Below the pieces are notes generated by a model. It was given only the letters and a program-made list of their open reading frames with translations. It ran no database searches and was not told where the DNA came from. Positions 6,806 to 51,323 of a DNA stretch of 64,000 nt are shown piece after piece. The position numbers and the translations under genes are program-made. Positions within the stretch are counted from its first letter, which is position 1; each line of letters opens with the position of its first letter. The DNA comes from Bacteroidales bacterium (lineage in GTDB: Bacteria > Bacteroidota > Bacteroidia > Bacteroidales > GCA-2748055): contig JAIPBT010000003.1 in NCBI GenBank assembly GCA_021738565.1, positions 1-64,000 of the forward strand. The letters run 5' to 3'.

Positions 6806-8020
6806 ATGATATTCAGTAGCAAGCATAAGAACCTTTCAGTCATAGCAATCATTTTGCTATTGCTGGCAAACGGATCGCGGGGATTTGGACAGATTTCAAT
6901 CAGGGAATTAAAAGGAGGGGATCTGAATACCATAAATACCGCTGTGCCATTTATTACCATTGCTCCCGATTCAAGAGCCGGAGCACTTGGGGATGCCGGT
7001 GTTTCCACCAGACCAGATTTAAGTTCTCAACACTGGAACGTAGCAAAATATGCATTCATGGAAGAAGACGGCGGGCTTGCCATTTCCTATACACCCTGGT
7101 TGAGACATATTATCCCCGATATAAACCTGGCCTACCTCTCAACTTATTTCAAACCCACAAACGAGCAGGTGGTCAGCGGATCGCTAAGGTACTTCTCCCT
7201 GGGACAGATTACTTTCACCGATATCGAAGGGGTGATTCAGGGTCAGTTTACTCCGTTTGAAATGGCTGTTGATGCAGGTTACTCAAGGCTGTTTACAGAT
7301 CATTTTTCCGGAGGTATCATTTTCAGGTACATCCATTCCAACTTAACCAGCGGACAACTGGTAAATGGTGAAGAATCCAAACCTGGAATCGCTGTTGCAG
7401 CAGATCTTGGATTTTATTACCAGAATGATCTGAGAATGATGAGAAATGATGCTTCGTATGCATGGGGAATTACACTTTCCAACCTCGGTACGCCAATCTC
7501 TTATACCTCCGATGATGAAGCCATGCCTTTGCCTTCAAATATGAGGCTTGGAGGAAGATTTGATTATGATCTTGATGACTATAACACCATGAGTTTTATC
7601 CTTGAATTCAATAAACTCCTGGTTCCGACAAGGCCAATTATGGAAGGTGATTCCATCATCAGGGGCCGGAAAGATCCTCAGTCTATTGTTCTTGGAATGA
7701 TCCAGTCGTTCTATGATGCTCCGGGCATCAGTTATGATGACGGAACCTACAGTACAGGATTTCGTGAAGAGCTTGCCGAGGTAATGGTCAGTGCCGGTGT
7801 AGAATACTGGTATCAGAACCAATTCGCTATCAGGGCAGGCTACTTTCACGAGACCTCCGTGAAAGGAAACCGCAAGTATGCAACTTTAGGTGTGGGAATG
7901 AAACTGAATGTATTCTCCCTGGATTTTGCGTACCTGATCCCGACCAACGGTCAGGACAGTCCCCTTGCCAATACACTTCGATTTACACTTGGATTCGATT
8001 TTGAAAGCCTGAAGCTCTGA
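6806..8020 (+). CDS. porV: T9SS outer-membrane protein PorV (LptO)
   Basis: This 404-residue FadL-like barrel protein has a signal peptide ending near GSRGFGQ. Right after it come the PorV hallmarks AVPFITIAPDSRAGALGDAG and a beta-strand-rich remainder ending in LRFTLGFDFESLKL. PorV binds the C-terminal signals of cargo emerging from the SprA translocon and shuttles them to the PorU attachment complex. The ATG at 6806 directly follows an in-frame TTG; the ATG is preferred. It follows porU, as in other genomes, and ends only 8 bases before ispF, so ispF is probably on the same transcript. Confidence 0.92.
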   Translation: MIFSSKHKNLSVIAIILLLLANGSRGFGQISIRELKGGDLNTINTAVPFITIAPDSRAGALGDAGVSTRPDLSSQHWNVAKYAFMEEDGGLAISYTPWLRHIIPDINLAYLSTYFKPTNEQVVSGSLRYFSLGQITFTDIEGVIQGQFTPFEMAVDAGYSRLFTDHFSGGIIFRYIHSNLTSGQLVNGEESKPGIAVAADLGFYYQNDLRMMRNDASYAWGITLSNLGTPISYTSDDEAMPLPSNMRLGGRFDYDLDDYNTMSFILEFNKLLVPTRPIMEGDSIIRGRKDPQSIVLGMIQSFYDAPGISYDDGTYSTGFREELAEVMVSAGVEYWYQNQFAIRAGYFHETSVKGNRKYATLGVGMKLNVFSLDFAYLIPTNGQDSPLANTLRFTLGFDFESLKL

Positions 8021-38819: not shown

Positions 38820-41207
38820 TCAATACAAAGATGGGTATTTTTCCGGTGCGTATTCGTGCATGATACCGTAGACCATATCAAAAACATCTTCTGCATTTGG
38901 ATTTGAATAATAATCCCCGTCAGAACTATAGGCTGGCCTGTGCTCATGCGCTGTCAGTGTGCGGGGTTCTGCATCAAGATGAAAATATGCTTTTTGATCC
39001 TCCATGACTTTCTTAAGCATAAATGCCGTAGCTCCTCCTGGTACATCTTCATCAAAGAAAACCACTTTGTTTGTCCTGGCGATTGATCTTCCAATAGTTC
39101 CATCAAGATCAAAAGGCAACAATGTCTGCACATCAATGAGCTCCACGCTAATTCCAAACTCTTTTAATTGATCAACAGCAGTTTCGGCGATCCTTACACA
39201 TGAACCATAGGTTACCAGTGTTACATCCATTCCCTCGTTCAATATCTCCGGCTTACCGAGAGGGACTTTGTATTCGCCCATATTCCCTGGTTTTGGCTCT
39301 TTCAATCCATAACCCTTCAATGGTTCGATAACAAGAGCTGGATCTTCCGATTCAAGCAAAGTATTGTACATTCCTGCAGCCTGAGTCATGTTTCGGGGAA
39401 CACAAACATATATGCCCCTGATCGAATTGATCACCATACTTAACGGAGAGCCCGAATGCCATATTCCTTCAAGTCGGTGCCCCCTTGTACGAATGATCAA
39501 AGGCGCAACCTGCGCTCCCTTGGTTCTCCAGTGCAATGTAGCCAGATCATCACTGAGTGTGGGCAGTGCATAAAGCAGGTAATCAAAATACTGTATCTCT
39601 GCAATTGGTCGCAATCCCCTCAACGCCATCCCAATTCCCTGTCCAATTATGGTTGCTTCCCTGATCCCGGTATCTGTAACCCTGAGCGGACCAAACTTTT
39701 CCTGGAGGCCTTCCAGTCCTTTGTTCACATCTCCGATTTTCCCTGTATCCTCTCCAAAGGTAACCAGCAAAGGGTATTTATTGAAAAGCGCCTCAAAATT
39801 ATCCCGGATGATCTCGCGCCCGTTGATCATTGACTGTTCGCCATCCAGTTTGACAGGGACGGGCTCCACCTTCAGGGCAGAACGCTTCGATTCATTGTAA
39901 AGCAGGGTACTGTAACGTTTGTAGTTATCACTCCTGTAATCACTGATCCATTGATTCATTGCTTCCTGCAATTCATCACGTATGGGACAAGTATTGCATA
40001 AATTACGCATGATGCGTTTTGCAGTTGACTGTACATCCTTTCTGATGGGATGCATTATCCTTTTCAGGTCCCGGCTGAGTATTCCCAGTTTATCAACATC
40101 TTCATTCTGACATTTACAGGAACGGTTATCAATGATCTCCAGCAACCCGTCACGCTCCTGCTTTATGGGATCAATATAATCCTTCCATGCTTTGTCCTTT
40201 GCCTTCTTTGCATCAGATATCGCTTTTTCCCTGATCCGGTCAATTTCATCTTTGCCTGCAACACCCGATTCAATGATCCATTCTTCCATCTTTAAAAGGG
40301 GATCATGTTCTGCTTCCCATGCAAGCCTCTCCTTCGACTTATAGCGTTCATGGCTTCCGGAGGTGCTGTGTCCAAGTGGCTGGACCATCTCATCGATATG
40401 AAAGATAACCGGCACGTGTTCATCTCTGCAGAGTGCAATGCCCTTTTCAAAAACTTCAACCATTTCGGGATAATTCCATCCCCTTGCCTTATAAATCTCT
40501 ATTCCATTGCTTTTCTCGCTTCGCCGAAAACCCTCAAGTGCTTCTGATATGCTCTCTTTTACGATCTGGAGGTCTTTGGTGACCGATATACCGTATCCAT
40601 CATCCCATACTGCTACAGCAACAGGTATTTGCAATACAGCCGCCGCATTAACGGCCTCAAAGAACATCCCTTCTGCTGTGCTGGCATCACCAATCGTCCC
40701 AAAAGCCACTTCGTTGCCCTTGTTCGATAAATGCGTAAATTCTTGCAAATCAGGATTTTCACGGAACAACCTTGAAGCATATCCCAACCCAACCAGACGT
40801 GGCATCTGTCCGGCTGTAGGTGACAGATCAGCACTGGAATTCTTCATCTTCATAAGGTTATTCCATGTACCGTCAGGTTTTAAACTCAATGTTGCATAAT
40901 GGTTGTTGAAATTCCGGCCGGCACTGCCAGGATTTAATTTTTCATCAGTCACACCGTATAGTTGGTAGAAAAACTGTTCGGGAGTAAGCAATCCTGAAGC
41001 CATCATAAAGGTATGATCCCTGTAATATCCTGATCTCCAGTCTCCATTCCTGAAGTTCTTTGCATAGGCAATTTGTGCAATCTCCTTCCCATCTCCGAAT
41101 ATTCCGAATTTGGCTTTGCCGGATACAACTTCTTTTCTTCCTAACAGGGCGATCTGCCGACTCAGATGTGCCAGTTGAAAATCATGGAGAATTTCTTTTT
41201 TAGTCAA
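38820..41207 (-). CDS. Fused 2-oxoacid dehydrogenase E1 (alpha plus beta)
   Basis: The 795-residue protein joins both E1 chains. The alpha part (about 1-330) has the thiamine diphosphate motif GDASTAEGMFFEAVNAA ending in WDDGYGIS. The beta part (about 465-795) has FGEDTGKIGDVNKG, QYFDYL and RGHRLEGIWHSGSPL. The family decarboxylates branched-chain or related 2-oxoacids and passes the acyl group to a lipoyl E2. No E2 or E3 gene is nearby. The linker holds Cys364, Cys366, Cys404 and Cys407, which could bind a metal. The exact substrate is not readable. Confidence 0.87.
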   Translation of the reverse strand: MTKKEILHDFQLAHLSRQIALLGRKEVVSGKAKFGIFGDGKEIAQIAYAKNFRNGDWRSGYYRDHTFMMASGLLTPEQFFYQLYGVTDEKLNPGSAGRNFNNHYATLSLKPDGTWNNLMKMKNSSADLSPTAGQMPRLVGLGYASRLFRENPDLQEFTHLSNKGNEVAFGTIGDASTAEGMFFEAVNAAAVLQIPVAVAVWDDGYGISVTKDLQIVKESISEALEGFRRSEKSNGIEIYKARGWNYPEMVEVFEKGIALCRDEHVPVIFHIDEMVQPLGHSTSGSHERYKSKERLAWEAEHDPLLKMEEWIIESGVAGKDEIDRIREKAISDAKKAKDKAWKDYIDPIKQERDGLLEIIDNRSCKCQNEDVDKLGILSRDLKRIMHPIRKDVQSTAKRIMRNLCNTCPIRDELQEAMNQWISDYRSDNYKRYSTLLYNESKRSALKVEPVPVKLDGEQSMINGREIIRDNFEALFNKYPLLVTFGEDTGKIGDVNKGLEGLQEKFGPLRVTDTGIREATIIGQGIGMALRGLRPIAEIQYFDYLLYALPTLSDDLATLHWRTKGAQVAPLIIRTRGHRLEGIWHSGSPLSMVINSIRGIYVCVPRNMTQAAGMYNTLLESEDPALVIEPLKGYGLKEPKPGNMGEYKVPLGKPEILNEGMDVTLVTYGSCVRIAETAVDQLKEFGISVELIDVQTLLPFDLDGTIGRSIARTNKVVFFDEDVPGGATAFMLKKVMEDQKAYFHLDAEPRTLTAHEHRPAYSSDGDYYSNPNAEDVFDMVYGIMHEYAPEKYPSLY

Positions 41208-41331: not shown

Positions 41332-41565
41332 ATGTTTTTTAATATACTTCTACTTTCAATAACGCTTATCGGACTGTCACTATTGGGGTTGGCTCTTAAT
41401 ATACTCATCAAAAAGGACGGTAAGTTTCCCACTTACAGGGTGGGGCACAATTCGGAAATGGCCAAAAGAGGAATCAAGTGTGTAAAACAGGAAGAGATTC
41501 GTTGCCATAAAGCAAGTCTTAAGGAACTTGAAAAAGAGTGCCACGGATGTCAACAACTTACCTGA
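41332..41565 (+). CDS. Small membrane protein, divergent NqrM-like paralogue
   Basis: A 77-residue protein with one N-terminal membrane helix (about residues 4-26), a basic stretch (IKKDGKF) and four cysteines at 50, 58, 70 and 73. Its layout and the RGI-x-C segment match the next gene, which carries the NqrM signature, so I read it as a diverged copy. The cysteine spacing differs from NqrM, so it may bind iron differently or have another target. It is 34 bases upstream of the next gene on the same strand. Confidence 0.6.
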   Translation: MFFNILLLSITLIGLSLLGLALNILIKKDGKFPTYRVGHNSEMAKRGIKCVKQEEIRCHKASLKELEKECHGCQQLT

Positions 41566-41599
41566 TTTTTTGTTATATACTTTAAAAGGGAGGAAAGCT

Positions 41600-41794
41600 A
41601 TGTTGAAGGTACTGATTGCATCTGTGATTCTTATCATGTTAGCAGTGGCAGGATTGGCCATTAAATTGTTGTTTGATAAAAAGGCCGAATTTTCCGGGGG
41701 GAGCTGCCAGTCGACGAACAGCTTAGAGGAATTGAATGCCAGGGGCATCTCCTGTGGTTGTGATGGACATTGCGGTGGATCTGAGCAACAATAG
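41600..41794 (+). CDS. nqrM: NqrM-like Na+-NQR maturation protein
   Basis: This 64-residue protein has one membrane helix (about residues 3-25) and four cysteines: Cys36 in GGSC and Cys52, Cys54 and Cys58 in GISCGCDGHC. From memory, Vibrio NqrM has the same order: helix, then GSC, then GI, then C-x-C-x3-C. NqrM is needed to assemble the iron centre held between NqrD and NqrE. Its position beside apbE and the nqr operon supports the reading. The ATG at 41600 follows GGGAGG by six bases; a longer open frame upstream runs into the previous gene. It converges on apbE, 12 bases apart. Confidence 0.75.
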   Translation: MLKVLIASVILIMLAVAGLAIKLLFDKKAEFSGGSCQSTNSLEELNARGISCGCDGHCGGSEQQ

Positions 41795-41806: not shown

Positions 41807-42820
41807 CTATTTTAAAAGCATACCTTTCATACCGGATGTCATCCACTCAAGGTAGTTTCCGTCCTGGTCGCTGTAAATGAACAGGGCCTCTACATCTTCC
41901 TGCCCTTCAATAAATGACCGGGCATCTTCCAGTCCAAGAGACATGCAGGCAGTAGCCAGTCCGTCAGCAGTGATGCATTTGTCGGTTATAATGGTTACAC
42001 TCAACAGGTTGCTCATCTTTGTATACCCGGACCTGGGATCCACCGTGTGTACAATCTTTTTGCCATCCTGTTCATAGTATTTTCGATAATTACCAGACGA
42101 CGCGAGTGACTTACCTGACAACCTTACTATTTCCTGCAGGTTCTGACCTGGCATCTGGTTACCAAAATAGGGCTTGTCAATGCCTATCTTCCAGTCATCA
42201 TTTCTTGGACTGACACCCTTCGTTGTAATTTCGCCTCCGATCTCAACCATGTAATTTGAAACTTCTTTTTCATCCAGGTAATCAGCGACCACATCAACTG
42301 CATAACCCTGTGCAATTGCATTCAGGTCAAGTCTAATACCGGGAAGTTCCTTCATCAATCTTCCGCCACTTATCCCAATCTTTGCCATCCCAACGAACTG
42401 CAAAATACTGTCAATTACCTCTTCGGATACATTCAATTTCCTCCCGGGGCCAAAACCCCATGCATCAATAAGGGGACCAACTGTTATATCAAAGGCCCCC
42501 CCGCTGATATCATATATCCGCTTAGCCTCATTGTATACTTCAATGAAATAATGATCAACCTCACTTGTCTCATTGTTGTTTAACCTAGAAATATTACTTG
42601 TATCGATGTATGTTGAAAGTGATTGATCGAAATCTGCGAGCAACGCATTGATCTCATCCTGAACATACAAAGTATCATTGCCCGGGCTCTGGTAAGTAAT
42701 ATGATATGAAGTGCCCTGTGTAAATCCTGAAATGGATACATAGGGTCCCGATTCGCCGTTGCGATTGCAGGACAGTATGCCGATCAATGACACAAATAAT
42801 AATATCCTGATGCTGTTCAT
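41807..42820 (-). CDS. apbE: FAD:protein FMN transferase
   Basis: ApbE attaches FMN to threonines of NqrB and NqrC outside the cytoplasm. The 337-residue protein is a lipoprotein (FVSLIGILSC, lipidated Cys18) with the family pattern: GTSYHITY near the start, AFDITVGPLIDAWGFG, LDLNAIAQGYAVD, VEIGGEITTKG and HTVDPRSG, plus DGLATACMSLG with the magnesium-binding aspartate. Both target genes are upstream in the nqr operon on the same strand. A terminator lies between nqrF and apbE, so apbE may have its own promoter, although I could not identify one. Confidence 0.94.
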   Translation of the reverse strand: MNSIRILLFVSLIGILSCNRNGESGPYVSISGFTQGTSYHITYQSPGNDTLYVQDEINALLADFDQSLSTYIDTSNISRLNNNETSEVDHYFIEVYNEAKRIYDISGGAFDITVGPLIDAWGFGPGRKLNVSEEVIDSILQFVGMAKIGISGGRLMKELPGIRLDLNAIAQGYAVDVVADYLDEKEVSNYMVEIGGEITTKGVSPRNDDWKIGIDKPYFGNQMPGQNLQEIVRLSGKSLASSGNYRKYYEQDGKKIVHTVDPRSGYTKMSNLLSVTIITDKCITADGLATACMSLGLEDARSFIEGQEDVEALFIYSDQDGNYLEWMTSGMKGMLLK

Positions 42821-42948: not shown

Positions 42949-44202
42949 TCAGCCAAAATCATCAAAAGCGATCATTTCTTCAGGTACTCCAAGGTTATAG
43001 AGTAGATTCTGAACTGCATCATTCATCATTGGCGGACCGCACATATAGTATTCGACCTCTTCCGGCTCTTCATGATACCTCAGGTAATTGTCATAAAGAA
43101 CCTGGTGAATGAAACCGGTCAATCCGTCCCAGTTGTCCTCTTCCAGTGGTTCTGAAAGTGCCAGGTGAAACTTGAAGTTGGGAAATTCCTTCTCTATCGC
43201 CCTGAATTCCTCTTCATAAAATACCTCTCTTTTTGAACGGGCACCGTACCAGTAGGATACCTCTCTTTTTGTTTTAAGCGTATGGAAAAGGTGGAACAAA
43301 TGAGACCTTAGGGGAGCCATTCCTGCACCTCCTCCAATATAGATCATTTCCCGTTTTGTATCCTTTATGAAAAATTCTCCATAAGGTCCGGATATTGTAA
43401 CCTTATCACCAGGCTTTCTGCTGAAGATAAATGATGAACATACACCCGGATTTACATTTTTAAACCTGCCGTGACTCACATCCCAGGGAGGTGTGGCAAT
43501 CCTGATATTCAGTTTGATAATATTGCCTTCAGCCGGATGGTTGGCCATGGAATATGCCCTGTAGGTCTCTTCATGGTTCCTCATTTTCAGGTCCCACATA
43601 TTGAAATTATCCCACTCATCACGGTATTCCTCTTCAACGTCAATATCCTTTCCGAAATCCACTTCAATCTTTGGAACATCGATCTGGATGTATCCGCCCG
43701 ATTGAAAATCAAGGTTCTCACCTTCCGGCAACCTAACAACAAACTCCTTAATAAAAGTGGCGACGTTGTGATTGGAAACCACCTTGCACTCCCACTTCTT
43801 AATTTCAAGTACCTCTTCAGGCACCCGGATCTTCATATCCTCCCGTATCTTCACCTGGCATCCCAGCCTCCAATTGTTCTTCTGTTCCTTCCGTGTAAAG
43901 AAACCTGTTTCAGTGGGAAGAATGGAACCGCCACCACCGAGTACCTGGCATTTGCACATACCGCATGTACCTCCTCCTCCGCATGCCGAAGGCAGGAAAA
44001 CTCCATTCGAAGAGAGTGTGCTCAAAATTGTATTGCCGGGACTCACAGTAAGGTCCTTATCATTCACTGTAAGGGTTACGTCTCCCTGGGGAGTAAGTTT
44101 TTGCCTTGCATAGAGCAACATTGCAACGAGCAAAATGATCACCAGCAGGAAAACTGCGATACTTATAAGAATAACCAATCCGTTAGATGAGAGCAATATC
44201 AT
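42949..44202 (-). CDS. nqrF: Na+-NQR subunit F (NADH-oxidising)
   Basis: NqrF takes electrons from NADH through FAD and a 2Fe-2S centre. The 417-residue protein has an N-terminal membrane helix, a ferredoxin domain with CGGGGTCGMC and the fourth cysteine in RLGCQV, the FAD-binding RAYSMANHP, and the NADH-binding YIGGGAGMAPLRSH followed by YYMCGPPMM. It is the last gene of nqrABCDEF, 20 bases after nqrE, and is followed by a terminator. Confidence 0.96.
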   Translation of the reverse strand: MILLSSNGLVILISIAVFLLVIILLVAMLLYARQKLTPQGDVTLTVNDKDLTVSPGNTILSTLSSNGVFLPSACGGGGTCGMCKCQVLGGGGSILPTETGFFTRKEQKNNWRLGCQVKIREDMKIRVPEEVLEIKKWECKVVSNHNVATFIKEFVVRLPEGENLDFQSGGYIQIDVPKIEVDFGKDIDVEEEYRDEWDNFNMWDLKMRNHEETYRAYSMANHPAEGNIIKLNIRIATPPWDVSHGRFKNVNPGVCSSFIFSRKPGDKVTISGPYGEFFIKDTKREMIYIGGGAGMAPLRSHLFHLFHTLKTKREVSYWYGARSKREVFYEEEFRAIEKEFPNFKFHLALSEPLEEDNWDGLTGFIHQVLYDNYLRYHEEPEEVEYYMCGPPMMNDAVQNLLYNLGVPEEMIAFDDFG

Positions 44203-44222
44203 ATGACCGAAACTTTACTTAT

Positions 44223-44840
44223 TTATAATTTAATTCCCATAAAACTCATAAAGGCAATACCCATCAGACCGGTTATTATGAAAGTGATACCCAGTCCGCG
44301 AAGTGGTGCCGGAACATTAGAATAGCGTATTTTTTCCCTTATGGCTGCTATTCCGACAATGGCAAGGAACCAGCCAACACCAGATCCCAAACCAAAGGAT
44401 ACTGCCTCTGCAATATTGGTGTATTCACGTTCCTGCATAAAAAGTGAACCGCCCAGAATTGCACAGTTAACTGCAATCAATGGCAGAAAGATACCAAGGG
44501 AACCATACAGTGCAGGGGTGAACTTCTCAATAACCATTTCCACCAGCTGCACCATGGATGCAATTACCGCAATAAACATGATGAAGCTCAGGAAACCGAG
44601 ATCCACATCTGCAAGTGTCGGACTGATCCATGTAAGCGCACCCGGCTGGAGGATATAATTCTCTATCAGGTAATTGATGGGTATAGTAAACCCAAGTACG
44701 AATATTACCGCTATTCCCAGTCCTGTTGATGTTTTAACTGTCTTAGAAACAGCAAGATAAGAGCACATCCCCAGGAAATAGGCGAATATCATGTTGTCGA
44801 TAAAGATGGACTTGACAAATATGTTGACTAAATTTTCCAT
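44223..44840 (-). CDS. nqrE: Na+-NQR subunit E
   Basis: An integral membrane subunit of 205 residues with six predicted helices. It is a paralogue of NqrD, and the two hold an iron-sulfur centre inside the membrane. The ligand cysteines are visible as Cys26 ([10 protein letters not shown]) and the later VNCAILGG. Other typical stretches are [23 protein letters not shown] and FMSFMGIKL at the end. It lies 12 bases after nqrD. Confidence 0.95.
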
Positions 44841-44852
44841 TTGATCTTGATG

Positions 44853-45497
44853 TTAGTTCTGTTCTACCAAATCTTTGTTCCTTGATCGCTGTACCCAGAT
44901 GATGATCCCAACAACAACAAGTGCCATGGGCGGGAGGACCATCATCCCGTTGTTCTCATATCCAAAGTCATAAAAACTTTGAGGGATCACCTGGTATCCA
45001 AGTAAAGTTCCTGCTCCGAACAGCTCACGGAAAAATGAAACGATAATGAGAATAAGTCCGTAACCAAATGCATTTCCCAGTCCGTCGAGGAAGGAGGCCC
45101 ACGGTTTGTTTGCCATTGCAAATGCCTCCAGTCGTCCCATGATAATGCAATTGGTAATAATCAATCCCACAAACACCGAAAGCTGCTTGCTGACCTCATA
45201 GGCAAATGCCTGAAGAATTTCGTCAACAAGGATTACCAGGGTGGCAATAACTACAAGCTCTACAATGATCCTGATACGTGGCGGGATAAGCTTTCTCAAT
45301 AAGGATATCACCACGTTGGAAATGGCCATCACTGCAATCACCGAGATCGTCATAACAATCGCCGGTTTCAGCTGAACAGTAATTGCAAGAGCCGAACAAA
45401 TTCCAAGCACCTGAACAGTTATCGGGTTGCTCTGACCCAGTGGTTCCCTGATCAACTTCAGATTCTTTGCGGACAATAAAGGTTCCTTTTCAGTCAT
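44853..45497 (-). CDS. nqrD: Na+-NQR subunit D
   Basis: The 214-residue membrane subunit pairs with NqrE. Its iron-ligand cysteines are seen in LGICSALAIT and TNCIIMGRLEAFAM. Family marks include PIKE-type LIREPLGQSNPITVQVLG at the start and FLDGLGNAFGYGLILI. The N-terminal part is cytoplasmic. It lies 32 bases after nqrC and 12 before nqrE. NqrM-type proteins, one of which is encoded 3 kb away, are thought to deliver iron to this pair. Confidence 0.95.
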   Translation of the reverse strand: MTEKEPLLSAKNLKLIREPLGQSNPITVQVLGICSALAITVQLKPAIVMTISVIAVMAISNVVISLLRKLIPPRIRIIVELVVIATLVILVDEILQAFAYEVSKQLSVFVGLIITNCIIMGRLEAFAMANKPWASFLDGLGNAFGYGLILIIVSFFRELFGAGTLLGYQVIPQSFYDFGYENNGMMVLPPMALVVVGIIIWVQRSRNKDLVEQN

Positions 45498-45529
45498 AAC
45501 TCCTGTAATATAATATTCTAATTTGTTTT

Positions 45530-46255
45530 TTACTTGTTCTTGAAATGGTTCACGTAACCGCTTAAATTTTCTTCCAGCATATCATTTAAGCCATTGGAAG
45601 TAATTGTACCGCCTGATATGGCATCAACAGCATGGGGGTTGGACTGTGTGTCGGTACTCTTCAGGACTGCAATACTTACGAAATTCCCTTTTTCATTGAA
45701 GATTTTTTTTCCCTCAAATTCAGATTCGAACCATGTTGTATTGATCTCAGCTCCAAGTCCGGGGGTCTCTCCTACATGATCAAATATGGCACCATATATC
45801 GTATTGAAGTCACTTTCAAAGGATATGTATCCCCAAATGGGACCCCACAGGCCTTTTCCCCTGACAGGTACAATATAACAGTGACCACCACCTTCATCCG
45901 TGTAAACAAAGACCGGAAACAACCTGTTTTCAAATTCCTTGTCAGCTTGTTCTTCTATCTTCAGGGTAATTTCAAAGGCATCTTCACCCTCAACTACTTC
46001 CCCATTGTAGTCCACCACGTATGAATCTGTGATGTACTTCGAGAATTCCTGTTCGATATATGTATTCTTTTCCTTCACATCAGAAGCTTCACCGGCTTCC
46101 TTAACAGAAGCAAGTATGTCTTCTTTCCTCTCAATTTCCTTGTTCAGTTCCTGCAATGGTTTCAGCTGCATGGCAACAAAAGAGAGCAAAACAGCTACGA
46201 TAATAACCATGATAACAGAAAAAATGAAAATGTAGGTATTACTAAAATGTTTCAT
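45530..46255 (-). CDS. nqrC: Na+-NQR subunit C (FMN carrier)
   Basis: NqrC has one N-terminal membrane helix and a periplasmic FMN domain, 241 residues in all. The ApbE target motif is DAISGGTITS (211-220), with Thr217 as the residue that would carry FMN by a phosphoester bond. GETPGLGAEI is another family mark. The motif has GGT where many homologues have GAT; this is within the known variation. It lies 12 bases after nqrB. Confidence 0.95.
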   Translation of the reverse strand: MKHFSNTYIFIFSVIMVIIVAVLLSFVAMQLKPLQELNKEIERKEDILASVKEAGEASDVKEKNTYIEQEFSKYITDSYVVDYNGEVVEGEDAFEITLKIEEQADKEFENRLFPVFVYTDEGGGHCYIVPVRGKGLWGPIWGYISFESDFNTIYGAIFDHVGETPGLGAEINTTWFESEFEGKKIFNEKGNFVSIAVLKSTDTQSNPHAVDAISGGTITSNGLNDMLEENLSGYVNHFKNK

Positions 46256-46267
46256 TTCTAAAATGTA

Positions 46268-47446
46268 TTAAGCTTGAACCTTAGCTCTTTTTAAACGCTT
46301 GCTAATATTTGCCTCTATAATATAATGATCAATCAACGGAGAAAAAACATTCATGAACAGGATCGCGAGCATCATACCTTCCGGATATCCGGGATTGAAC
46401 ACCCTGATCAGGATGGCCAGCACACCGATAAGGAAACCATAGATCCATTTTCCTTTTTCTGTCTGAGTTGCCGTAACCGGGTCGGTGGCCATAAACACTG
46501 CTCCAAAAGCAAAACCTCCGATTATGAGATGTTCCCAGAAAGGCATTTCCATCAGCACATTGCCTCCAAATGCGTTCAGGATCAATCCCATAACAGCGCC
46601 ACCTGCAAAAGTGGAAAAGATGATCTTCCAGCTCCCCACTCCAACAAATACCAGGAAAAGTGCCCCGATCAAAATTGCCAGCGTGGATGTCTCACCGATC
46701 GATCCAGGGATGATGCCCAGGAATTTGTCCCAGACAGAAAATTCCTGCCCGATGCCGTTCACAAATACGTTGTTGCCCTGGGCAGCCTGCCCAAGTATGG
46801 TGGCGCCCGAATAACCATCAACAGTCTCCATTCCTTTTCCAAGCCCGGCAACCCAAACCTGGTCACCAGACATTTTTGTCGGATAGGCAAAGAACAGGAA
46901 AGCCCTGGCTGTCAAGGCGGGATTCAGGATATTCATACCGGTTCCTCCAAAAACCTCTTTTCCAATGATCACTGCAAAAGCTGTTGCAACGGCAACCATC
47001 CATAGTGGCACATCAACGGGCATAACCAGCGGAATCAACATACCTGAAACCAGGAATCCCTCATTGATCTCGTGACCACGTATCTGTGCAAATACAAATT
47101 CAATACCCAGTCCGGTAACATAAGAGACAACAATGATCGGGAAAACCCTTAAGAAGCCAAACCAGACCATTTCCCAGAATGAGGCCTCAACACCCATTGC
47201 CAGAAAATGCTGGTAGCCGGTGTTCCAAATACCAAACAGCAGGGCAGGAACCATCGCAATAACGACCATGATCATTCCGCGTTTCATATCAAATGCATCC
47301 CTGATGTGTGTGCCGCCTGAGGTTACAGTGTTGGGAACAAAAAGGAAAGTCTCAAAGCCTTCAAAAGTGGATTTCAGAAAATGAAACTTGCCTCCCTTTT
47401 CAACATTCGGTTTGATCTTATCTATGTATCGTCTTAAAGCATTCAT
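46268..47446 (-). CDS. nqrB: Na+-NQR subunit B (main membrane subunit)
   Basis: NqrB forms most of the sodium channel and carries riboflavin and FMN. The protein has 392 residues and about ten membrane helices. The flavin-attachment motif DGYSGATILG is intact, with Thr216 as the expected FMN site. GKEVFGGTGMNILNPALTARAF and FMATDPVTATQTEKGKWIYG are strongly conserved in the NqrB/RnfD family; the longer N-terminus marks it as NqrB. It lies 18 bases after nqrA. Confidence 0.96.
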   Translation of the reverse strand: MNALRRYIDKIKPNVEKGGKFHFLKSTFEGFETFLFVPNTVTSGGTHIRDAFDMKRGMIMVVIAMVPALLFGIWNTGYQHFLAMGVEASFWEMVWFGFLRVFPIIVVSYVTGLGIEFVFAQIRGHEINEGFLVSGMLIPLVMPVDVPLWMVAVATAFAVIIGKEVFGGTGMNILNPALTARAFLFFAYPTKMSGDQVWVAGLGKGMETVDGYSGATILGQAAQGNNVFVNGIGQEFSVWDKFLGIIPGSIGETSTLAILIGALFLVFVGVGSWKIIFSTFAGGAVMGLILNAFGGNVLMEMPFWEHLIIGGFAFGAVFMATDPVTATQTEKGKWIYGFLIGVLAILIRVFNPGYPEGMMLAILFMNVFSPLIDHYIIEANISKRLKRAKVQA

Positions 47447-47464
47447 ATGATAGTGACAAATTAT

Positions 47465-48820
47465 TTATTCTAATTCCTTCATCATTATTTTGAAACCATT
47501 CCTTAAAATGGATTGTACAGGAGTCTTGGAGGTACAGACAAATTCACACAGTGCCATGTCCTCCTCCACCACTTCGTATATTCCCAGCTGTTCCATTTTA
47601 TCGATATCCTCTATCAATATAGCCTTTAATAACTGTACAGGATAGATGTCCATGGGAAATACCTTTTCATATTCACCGGTCATTACAAAAGCCCTTTCAC
47701 CTCCGTGAATATTGGTGTCAAGACGGTACTCCTTCCCTGGCATAATCCATGAGAAGAAACTTCTGGAAACAGAAAATTTATTGAATCCCGGCGTGATCCA
47801 TCCAAACATCTCGTAGTAATCTCCCTCAGGGATCACAGTGACCTGTGAATCGCTGAATCCAATGTGCCCCTCCTCACCGTCAATCTTCCGGCCGGTAAGC
47901 ACATTTCCACTTATATACCGCACGTTATCCTGAACAATATTATCCTTAACAATGGATGCGACCCGGGCTCCGCGTATGAGCTTGTAATAAACCGGTTTTT
48001 TCACTTCAGAACCGCACAACGCCACTATGACTCTGGGATCGTATTTCCCGGTGCGGAACAGGTTTCCTATGGTAACCACATCCTGTGGCTTGACCGTCCA
48101 AACTTTCTCTCCTCTATTGATAGGTGCAATTTTGTGGATCTGGATCCCTACATTGCCCGAGGGATGAGATCCCCTGAAATAATGTTTTTCCACGTTTTTG
48201 GCCCCGGTATATGCTTTCGCGGCGGGATAATCCGCATCCAGACCCAAATGCACTTTTCCATCCGTCAATTTTCGAAGGACATTTATTCCAACCTGGAAAT
48301 CCTCATCCTTTTCCTTCATGATAAAATCATAATCAGGTGCTAGGGGACCTGAATCAAATCCGGATATAAAGATATCCCTGGGAACATCAGACGGTAACGC
48401 TACGATATCGTAAGGACGCTGGTGGATGACAGGCCAAATCCCGCTCTCAAGAAGATTTTCAATGATCTCTTCGCGCTTCATGGAATCAGGGTCCCCTTTT
48501 TTAAAGGTTTCAAAGGCATCCTTGCCATCATCTTCGATGACAATCTCTATGATCCTCCTTCGTTCCCCCCTGACAATCTTGGTTACAATACCGCTAACCG
48601 GTGAAGCATATTTGATCTCCGGATGGTATTTGTCACAAAACAGCGTGGAACCTACCTTTACCTCAACACACGGCTTGGCAACAATCTTTGGTGTAAGAGA
48701 ATGAAAGTCAACCGGTTTGACAGCATAGGTTTTTGATCTGGGTGCTTTAATGAAAATTTTGTCCGCTTCGCCCTTTAACTTGATATCAAGGCCTTTTCGT
48801 ATCTTGATAACTTCTGACAT
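47465..48820 (-). CDS. nqrA: Na+-NQR subunit A
   Basis: NqrA is the cytoplasmic subunit that helps form the ubiquinone or menaquinone site. The protein has 451 residues, a usual length. Typical parts are the start IRKGLDIKLKGEA, PVDFHSLTPKIVAKPCVEVKVG, ASPVSGIVTKIVRGERR and the end CTSKTPVQSILRNGFKIMMKELE. It opens the operon, 32 bases from the predicted transcription start. Confidence 0.95.
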   Translation of the reverse strand: MSEVIKIRKGLDIKLKGEADKIFIKAPRSKTYAVKPVDFHSLTPKIVAKPCVEVKVGSTLFCDKYHPEIKYASPVSGIVTKIVRGERRRIIEIVIEDDGKDAFETFKKGDPDSMKREEIIENLLESGIWPVIHQRPYDIVALPSDVPRDIFISGFDSGPLAPDYDFIMKEKDEDFQVGINVLRKLTDGKVHLGLDADYPAAKAYTGAKNVEKHYFRGSHPSGNVGIQIHKIAPINRGEKVWTVKPQDVVTIGNLFRTGKYDPRVIVALCGSEVKKPVYYKLIRGARVASIVKDNIVQDNVRYISGNVLTGRKIDGEEGHIGFSDSQVTVIPEGDYYEMFGWITPGFNKFSVSRSFFSWIMPGKEYRLDTNIHGGERAFVMTGEYEKVFPMDIYPVQLLKAILIEDIDKMEQLGIYEVVEEDMALCEFVCTSKTPVQSILRNGFKIMMKELE

Positions 48821-51031: not shown

Positions 51032-51125
51032 CTTACCTTTGAAATAAAAATATGTTTTATGCGTCTAATCAACCGGATATAAATTGGTATCCGCAAATGC
51101 AATTTATCAAAAATATAGTACCAGC

Positions 51126-51323
51126 ATGAAAATATCAAAAGAAACCACTATTGAAGACCTTGTGCATTATTCTTCATCAGCCGTTGGTTACCTTCGCGAA
51201 AAAGGTATTAAATGCATAGCCTGTGGTGAACCCATTTGGGGTACCATTGAAGATGCTGCAAAAGAAAAAGGATTTAACGATGGTGATATTGACCAGTTCG
51301 TTAAAGACCTTAATATGCTTTAA
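51126..51323 (+). CDS. DUF1858 domain protein
   Basis: A 65-residue cytoplasmic protein with a single DUF1858 domain: ITKETT-type ISKETTIEDLVHYSSSAVGYL followed by KCIACGEPIWGTIEDAAKEKG. The C-x2-C pair (Cys29 and Cys32) may bind metal or form a disulfide. This domain is often found fused to hybrid-cluster or redox proteins; alone, its role is unknown. The ATG at 51126 fits the domain start. Its stop codon overlaps that of the convergent membrane protein gene inside a TTTAAA. Confidence 0.8.
   Translation: MKISKETTIEDLVHYSSSAVGYLREKGIKCIACGEPIWGTIEDAAKEKGFNDGDIDQFVKDLNML

Follow-up and report, generated by a model that had tools for sequence, protein, structure and literature searches.

The window analysed here, the whole stretch of 64,000 nucleotides, carries two small genes in tandem on the forward strand, P1 (41332..41565, 77 aa) and P2 (41600..41794, 64 aa), which are separated by 34 bp. 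P2 displays the four-cysteine pattern of NqrM, C-x15-C-x-C-x3-C, and P1 is a diverged NqrM-like paralogue; hereinafter, we denote the respective groups of homologues B-type and A-type. Convergent with P2, and ending 12 bp from its end, is apbE (41807..42820, reverse strand), which encodes an FMN transferase (PF02424, E=3.8e-83). The nqr cluster follows on the same reverse strand (42949-48820) in the order nqrF-E-D-C-B-A. Within this cluster, nqrF (42949..44202) was identified by the Fer2, FAD_binding_6 and NAD_binding_1 domains of its product and by gene order, nqrE (44223..44840) and nqrD (44853..45497) by operon order and matches to the respective annotated genes, and nqrC, nqrB and nqrA (45530..48820) by gene order, with the nqrA product scoring over the TIGR01936 cut-off. 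On the other side, divergent from P1, lies a gene of the 2-oxo acid dehydrogenase E1 type (38820..41207, reverse strand), which was named by sequence reading. Both tandem ORFs that the preliminary description had placed beside apbE and nqr are present. The sequences of NqrE and NqrD contain two cysteines each, C25 (GMC) and C125 (VNC) in the former and C33 and C116 in the latter, which we take to be the ligands of the intramembrane [2Fe-2S] site, the presumed client of the proteins considered here. Further along the forward strand (51084-51323), there is a 79-aa ORF with the motif G-I-K-C-I-A-C-G-E-P, which, in our assumption, is reminiscent of DUF1858-type small redox proteins.

P1 and P2 have homologues in many genomes and show pN far below pS, indicating that they are genes rather than chance ORFs. 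In the comparison of the window genome with another genome of the same genus (G003), in which synonymous sites are saturated, pN was 0.18 and pS 0.91 for P1, and pN was 0.26 and pS 0.80 for P2; both genes are under purifying selection. Each of the two proteins consists of one N-terminal helix, followed by basic residues and then by a cysteine tail. The cysteine order of NqrM that had been read in P2 is borne out (G-S-C36 ... G-I-S-C52-G-C54-D-G-H-C58), as is the same design with a different cysteine spacing in P1, where the cysteines are at positions 50, 58, 70 and 73. The P1 motif is F-P-x4-G-x-N-x2-M-x3-G-I-x-C, with the first cysteine of NqrM lost and a C-x2-C at the C-terminus. One helix combined with a conserved four-cysteine tail, a trait of NqrM, is accordingly found in P2 and is lacking in P1. 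This difference extends to the homologues. Exactly four cysteines are present behind residue 28 in 69 of the 74 B-class proteins, a class that includes one Providencia NqrM and a chance-like ORF of genome G083, whereas the number of cysteines behind the helix of the 60 A-class proteins varies (one in 10 proteins, two in 4, three in 12, four in 29 and five in 5), and only three of the 60 have C-x8-18-C-x1-3-C close behind the helix. The sole invariant cysteine in the A-type alignment is C50. In six NqrA-positive genomes that have the A-type only (G041, G044, G047, G238, G264 and G271), the A protein contains a single cysteine.

Neither P1 nor P2 matched any Pfam or NCBIfam family. In particular, the curated NqrM family, PF04400 (formerly DUF539), gave no match at E<=1 to the two window proteins, to the 16 members of the B-type alignment (A1) or to the 17 members of the A-type alignment (A2), the window proteins being included in these alignments. 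In the genome search, PF04400 remained below the cut-off in all 148 Bacteroidota genomes, 33 of which are NqrA-positive, with sub-cut-off matches at E<=0.1 in 10 of them; none of the 14 control genomes yielded a match over the cut-off either, and hmmscan of annotated NqrM served as the positive control, in which PF04400 recognised the proteins of Enterobacter (78.7 bits) and Ruegeria (26.1 bits) against a cut-off of 22. Given that membership in PF04400 fails, we class P1 and P2 as an NqrM-like variant outside the curated family. Weak matches of individual alignment members to other families (DUF2909, 0.00032; TIGR04117, 0.0011; zinc ribbons, SLATT and others) differ between members and are therefore considered chance or helix-driven. 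P2 also resembles the FeoB-associated Cys-rich membrane protein (PF12669) in that both are short and have a single helix and cysteines, but the match is below the cut-off (E=0.15, 12.8 bits against a cut-off of 27), and no feoB was found among the neighbours that were read. At the level of titles and listings, no description of a Bacteroidota NqrM was found in the literature; a remark on Bacteroidetes might be contained within the original NqrM papers.

Comparison of profiles does suggest a connection of P2 to NqrM. The alignment of B-type with proteobacterial NqrM has an HH probability of 95.8% (E 6.7e-9 for a single comparison) over 63-64 columns, i.e., the full length, with the four cysteines in register. 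The score of 46.6 was not reached by any of 100 full-column shuffles (10.5 +- 2.4), nor by any of 100 shuffles of the tail only (39.5 +- 1.5). Furthermore, the B profile, which was derived exclusively from P2-type proteins of Bacteroidota, finds 14 of the 17 proteobacterial NqrM at E<=0.01 (4e-6 to 0.0077, with E-values of both the B and the A profile calculated for 5000 sequences), and the remaining three at 0.02, 0.021 and 0.12. The B tail alone yields no significant HH score against the NqrM tail alone (probability 0.6%), so that the similarity between B-type and NqrM is mostly helix-borne. The A profile finds none of the 17 NqrM at E<=0.01, and by HH it aligns with NqrM over the helix only, with 70 of 100 tail shuffles scoring as well. 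The A and B profiles match each other with an HH probability of 98.6% (E 5e-16). Judging by these comparisons, P2 is remotely similar to NqrM, A and B are homologous to each other, and the link of P1 to NqrM runs through P2. The relationship to DUF539 that had been suggested for both proteins is thus divided: the curated profile gives no match, the P2-type profile does find NqrM, and for P1 the direct connection fails.

We take occurrence with NQR, often beside apbE, to be a defining feature of NqrM. P2 resembles the NqrM of Pseudomonadota in its length, the single N-terminal helix with G-S-C shortly behind it and the subsequent C-x-C-x3-C, as well as in its place beside apbE, the co-occurrence with NQR and the remote profile similarity. 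It differs from the enterobacterial protein in having 15 rather than 11 residues between the first and second cysteines, and, apart from the failure to match PF04400, both P1 and P2 differ from NqrM by the lack of a long basic C-terminal tail and by being duplicated; for P1, the missing first cysteine is an additional difference.

In the phylogenetic tree, which was built from 132 rows and only 80 columns and hence is rough, with the midpoint root used for drawing only, all 56 A rows fall on one side of a branch with support 100/98 and adjoin 20 B rows that make up a P2-like group (98/86). Two more groups of 25 rows each account for the remainder of the B-type: the first derives mostly from order genomes that have the B-type only, with the six NqrM rows beside it (97/88), and the second comprises the rest of the phylum sample. 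Because the B rows are split into several groups, the B-type is not a single clade. We infer from this topology that a single tandem duplication within the order would have given rise to the A-type and the P2-like B-type, after which many lineages would have lost one of the copies. Two further B-like paralogues belong to the P2-like group, on long branches. The first, with GSSC ... C-x2-C, is encoded in the same genome as the window (contig C71, 98371-98529; loci L157 and L131), in a heavy-metal efflux-like island together with a CusB/HlyD-type protein, an HMA protein, a P-II-like protein and a P-type ATPase with heavy-metal binding domains. The second is on contig C60 of G003 (7446-7661; locus L159) and, by reading, has similar neighbours. 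These paralogues possibly represent an NqrM relative that was recruited to metal handling.

The distribution of the two types closely follows that of NQR. In the phylum sample of 148 Bacteroidota genomes, NqrA scored over the TIGR01936 cut-off in 33, and the P2-type profile A1 (E<=0.01) matched 27, namely, 26 of the 33 NqrA-positive genomes and one of the 115 others (Fisher p 1.7e-21, a value that overstates independence because the genomes are related). When the six training genomes (G000, G105, G168, G187, G199 and G203) are left out, the counts are 20 of 27 and 1 of 115. The A profile A2 matched 25 of the 148 genomes, and all of these except G179 are also B-profile genomes, via the cross-similarity of A and B. 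The B match in G083 (E=0.00175) and the A match in G179, both in genomes without NqrA over the cut-off, look like chance ORFs.

The seven NqrA-positive genomes of the phylum sample that lack a B match all belong to one family, f48. In each of the seven (L064-L070), there is a single-helix ORF of 67-75 aa with [SGA]-C-C-G-G-G-[NH]-C ... C, located directly behind apbE in six of them and, in the seventh (L067), in which apbE was not detected, 1.1 kb behind nqrF. This third variant resembles P1 and P2 in the combination of a single helix with a cysteine tail but has another cysteine arrangement. Its HH probability against NqrM is 90-92%; 7 of 100 tail shuffles equal the score, so the tail by itself does not demonstrate homology. 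In Parabacteroides distasonis (L062), nqrF is followed by small ORFs, which belong to neither the A-type nor the B-type.

The order sample consists of 149 genomes that are at least 95% complete, 120 of them with NqrA over the cut-off, and here the A-or-B call was made by the better profile E-value. A or B is present in 114 of the 120 NqrA-positive genomes and in 4 of the 29 others (p 9e-19, with the same overstatement for related genomes); with the 14 training genomes removed, A or B is present in 100 of 106 NqrA-positive genomes. Among the 120, 68 have A only, 31 B only, 15 both and 6 neither. Within the group with both, the B call is weak in G050 (E 0.007, interrupted) and in G216 and G287 (about 1e-5), and the B match of G290 contains a stop codon. 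In the six with neither (G030, G232, G275, G277, G323 and G324), the nqr regions, of 3.1 kb in the case of G232, contain no convincing small ORF with a helix and cysteines. Searches with the single sequences in 61 relatives found P1 in 39, P2 in 18 and NqrA in 49. Among the relatives without NqrA, P1 was matched in G016, G021, G024 and G036, and P2 was matched in G024 and G026; NqrF is partial in G021, G024 and G036, none was found in G016, and G026, which is 69% complete, has only a weak NqrF-like match. Co-occurrence with nqr is hence nearly complete, the exceptions being G016, G026 and, in the order sample, G242, which has A but neither NqrA nor NqrF, along with the weak B-only matches of G212 and G274. 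With regard to the check proposed in the preliminary description, the genes accompany nqr across the sampled Bacteroidota, but most genomes carry one type only. It had been missed earlier that the diverged A-type is often the sole type and that, most likely, this family takes the place of PF04400 NqrM among the Bacteroidota sampled.

The tandem arrangement itself, with A upstream of B and match starts ~250-380 bp apart, occurs in 10 of the 120 NqrA-positive order genomes (G000, G057, G211, G215, G216, G244, G246, G287, G291 and G320), which span eight families (f1, f24, f31, f70, f74, f75, f103 and f105); in G295, A and B are 1.5 kb apart. The layout of the window, E1 - A - B - apbE - nqrF to nqrA, is reproduced in G211 (L332). 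On one contig with nqrA and within 25 kb of it, A or B was found in 27 of the 120 genomes, a count that is lowered by broken assemblies. Four genomes of family f38 (G163, G178, G190 and G194) have the gene at a distance of 39-58 kb from nqrA, so the association with NQR does not depend on close linkage. The adjacent apbE is seen in the window and in several relatives, although not in all lineages. Several families keep the divergent pair of E1 dehydrogenase gene and A-type gene, even at loci without an adjacent nqr gene.

This last type of neighbourhood raises the question whether P2 alone is the maturation factor, with P1 a paralogue that has acquired a new job, for example, together with the product of the divergent E1 gene. 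The P1-type gene is located beside E1 in many relatives of the family, including loci without apbE or nqr within 1.5 kb (L025, L026 and L028), and in other families (L040, L043, L046, L332, L333, L335, L336 and L337); the loss of the first cysteine and the failure of the A profile to find NqrM point in the same direction. However, 68 of the 120 NqrA-positive order genomes have A without B, so that A would be the sole candidate seen for NQR maturation there, whereas among the 29 order genomes without NqrA over the cut-off, A occurs only in G242 and in G208, and the latter encodes a full-length NqrF at 69% identity. Moreover, G029, G031, G044 and G047 have NqrA, yet the 14-15 kb surrounding A in these genomes revealed no E1. 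We therefore regard a separate job of P1 as rather unlikely, and the A-only genomes favour a role of P1 in NQR maturation.

Co-occurrence with NQR could also reflect a different kind of association, with P1 and P2 being small structural accessory subunits of the Bacteroidota NQR rather than assembly factors. Small single-helix subunits are common in respiratory complexes, and near-complete co-occurrence would look identical in this case. Nevertheless, the cysteine pattern fits metal handling, and B resembles, over its length, NqrM, to which a function in maturation is ascribed (PMC12174285; PMC6209661), so we consider structural subunits improbable. Another potential client is RNF, which is encoded in the window's genome as well and which P1 and P2 might serve instead of, or besides, NQR. 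The intramembrane [2Fe-2S] centre has a homologous counterpart in RNF (PMC12174285), and a second NqrA-like match below the cut-off is seen in many order genomes, including G242, where such a match coexists with A in the absence of NqrA and NqrF. In all five cases that were checked (G065, G120, G150, G195 and the window's own genome), these sub-cut-off matches are RnfC (RnfC_N). However, the four of these genomes that have RnfC without NqrA over the cut-off, G065, G120, G150 and G195, have no A or B match, nor did the rnf locus of the window's genome (L158, 18 kb) yield one. A function with RNF thus appears highly improbable and, given the lack of co-occurrence in these four genomes, RNF as the sole client is disfavoured.

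Taken as a whole, P1 and P2 probably represent NqrM, the maturation factor of NQR, in its Bacteroidota form, which is present here as a tandem duplicate. The earlier view of a duplicated NqrM with one diverged copy turns out to be largely right, with P2 keeping the pattern and P1 having lost the first cysteine; the role of P1 is less certain than that of P2. NqrM is described as a small membrane protein that maturation of NQR seems to need and that has been proposed to deliver iron to NqrD/NqrE (PMC12174285; PMC6209661). In the mechanism that we propose, one N-terminal helix would anchor each of P1 and P2 in the membrane, and, given the basic residues behind the helix, the positive-inside rule predicts a cytoplasmic location of the cysteine tail. 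The four-cysteine site of P2 would most likely bind iron or a nascent Fe-S unit, and P2 could then pass iron to the two NqrD and two NqrE membrane cysteines, where the [2Fe-2S] centre of Na+-NQR would be built; ApbE would add the covalent FMNs. P1 probably has the same client, acting alone in A-only genomes or, as may be the case here, in cooperation with P2. Alternatively, it might employ another chemistry for delivery, assist P2 or have a different job.

More than half of the sampled NQR-bearing order genomes (68 of 120) might mature NQR with an NqrM relative that lacks the four-cysteine pattern. Under this hypothesis, which we put forward tentatively and consider somewhat less probable than its converse, NqrM would serve the NqrD/NqrE pocket chiefly as a scaffold or gatekeeper in the membrane and not as a simple iron carrier, and the tandem would combine a scaffold with a metal donor.

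NQR is an important respiratory pump in Bacteroidota, and a 2025 review places the origin of NQR in this phylum (PMC12174285). If the proposed role is correct, two unnamed small families would fill the NqrM gap in Bacteroidota, P1 and P2 would provide a testable partner for producing an active NQR of Bacteroidota in other hosts, and the A-type, having lost cysteines naturally, would amount to a built-in mutagenesis experiment on the action of NqrM.
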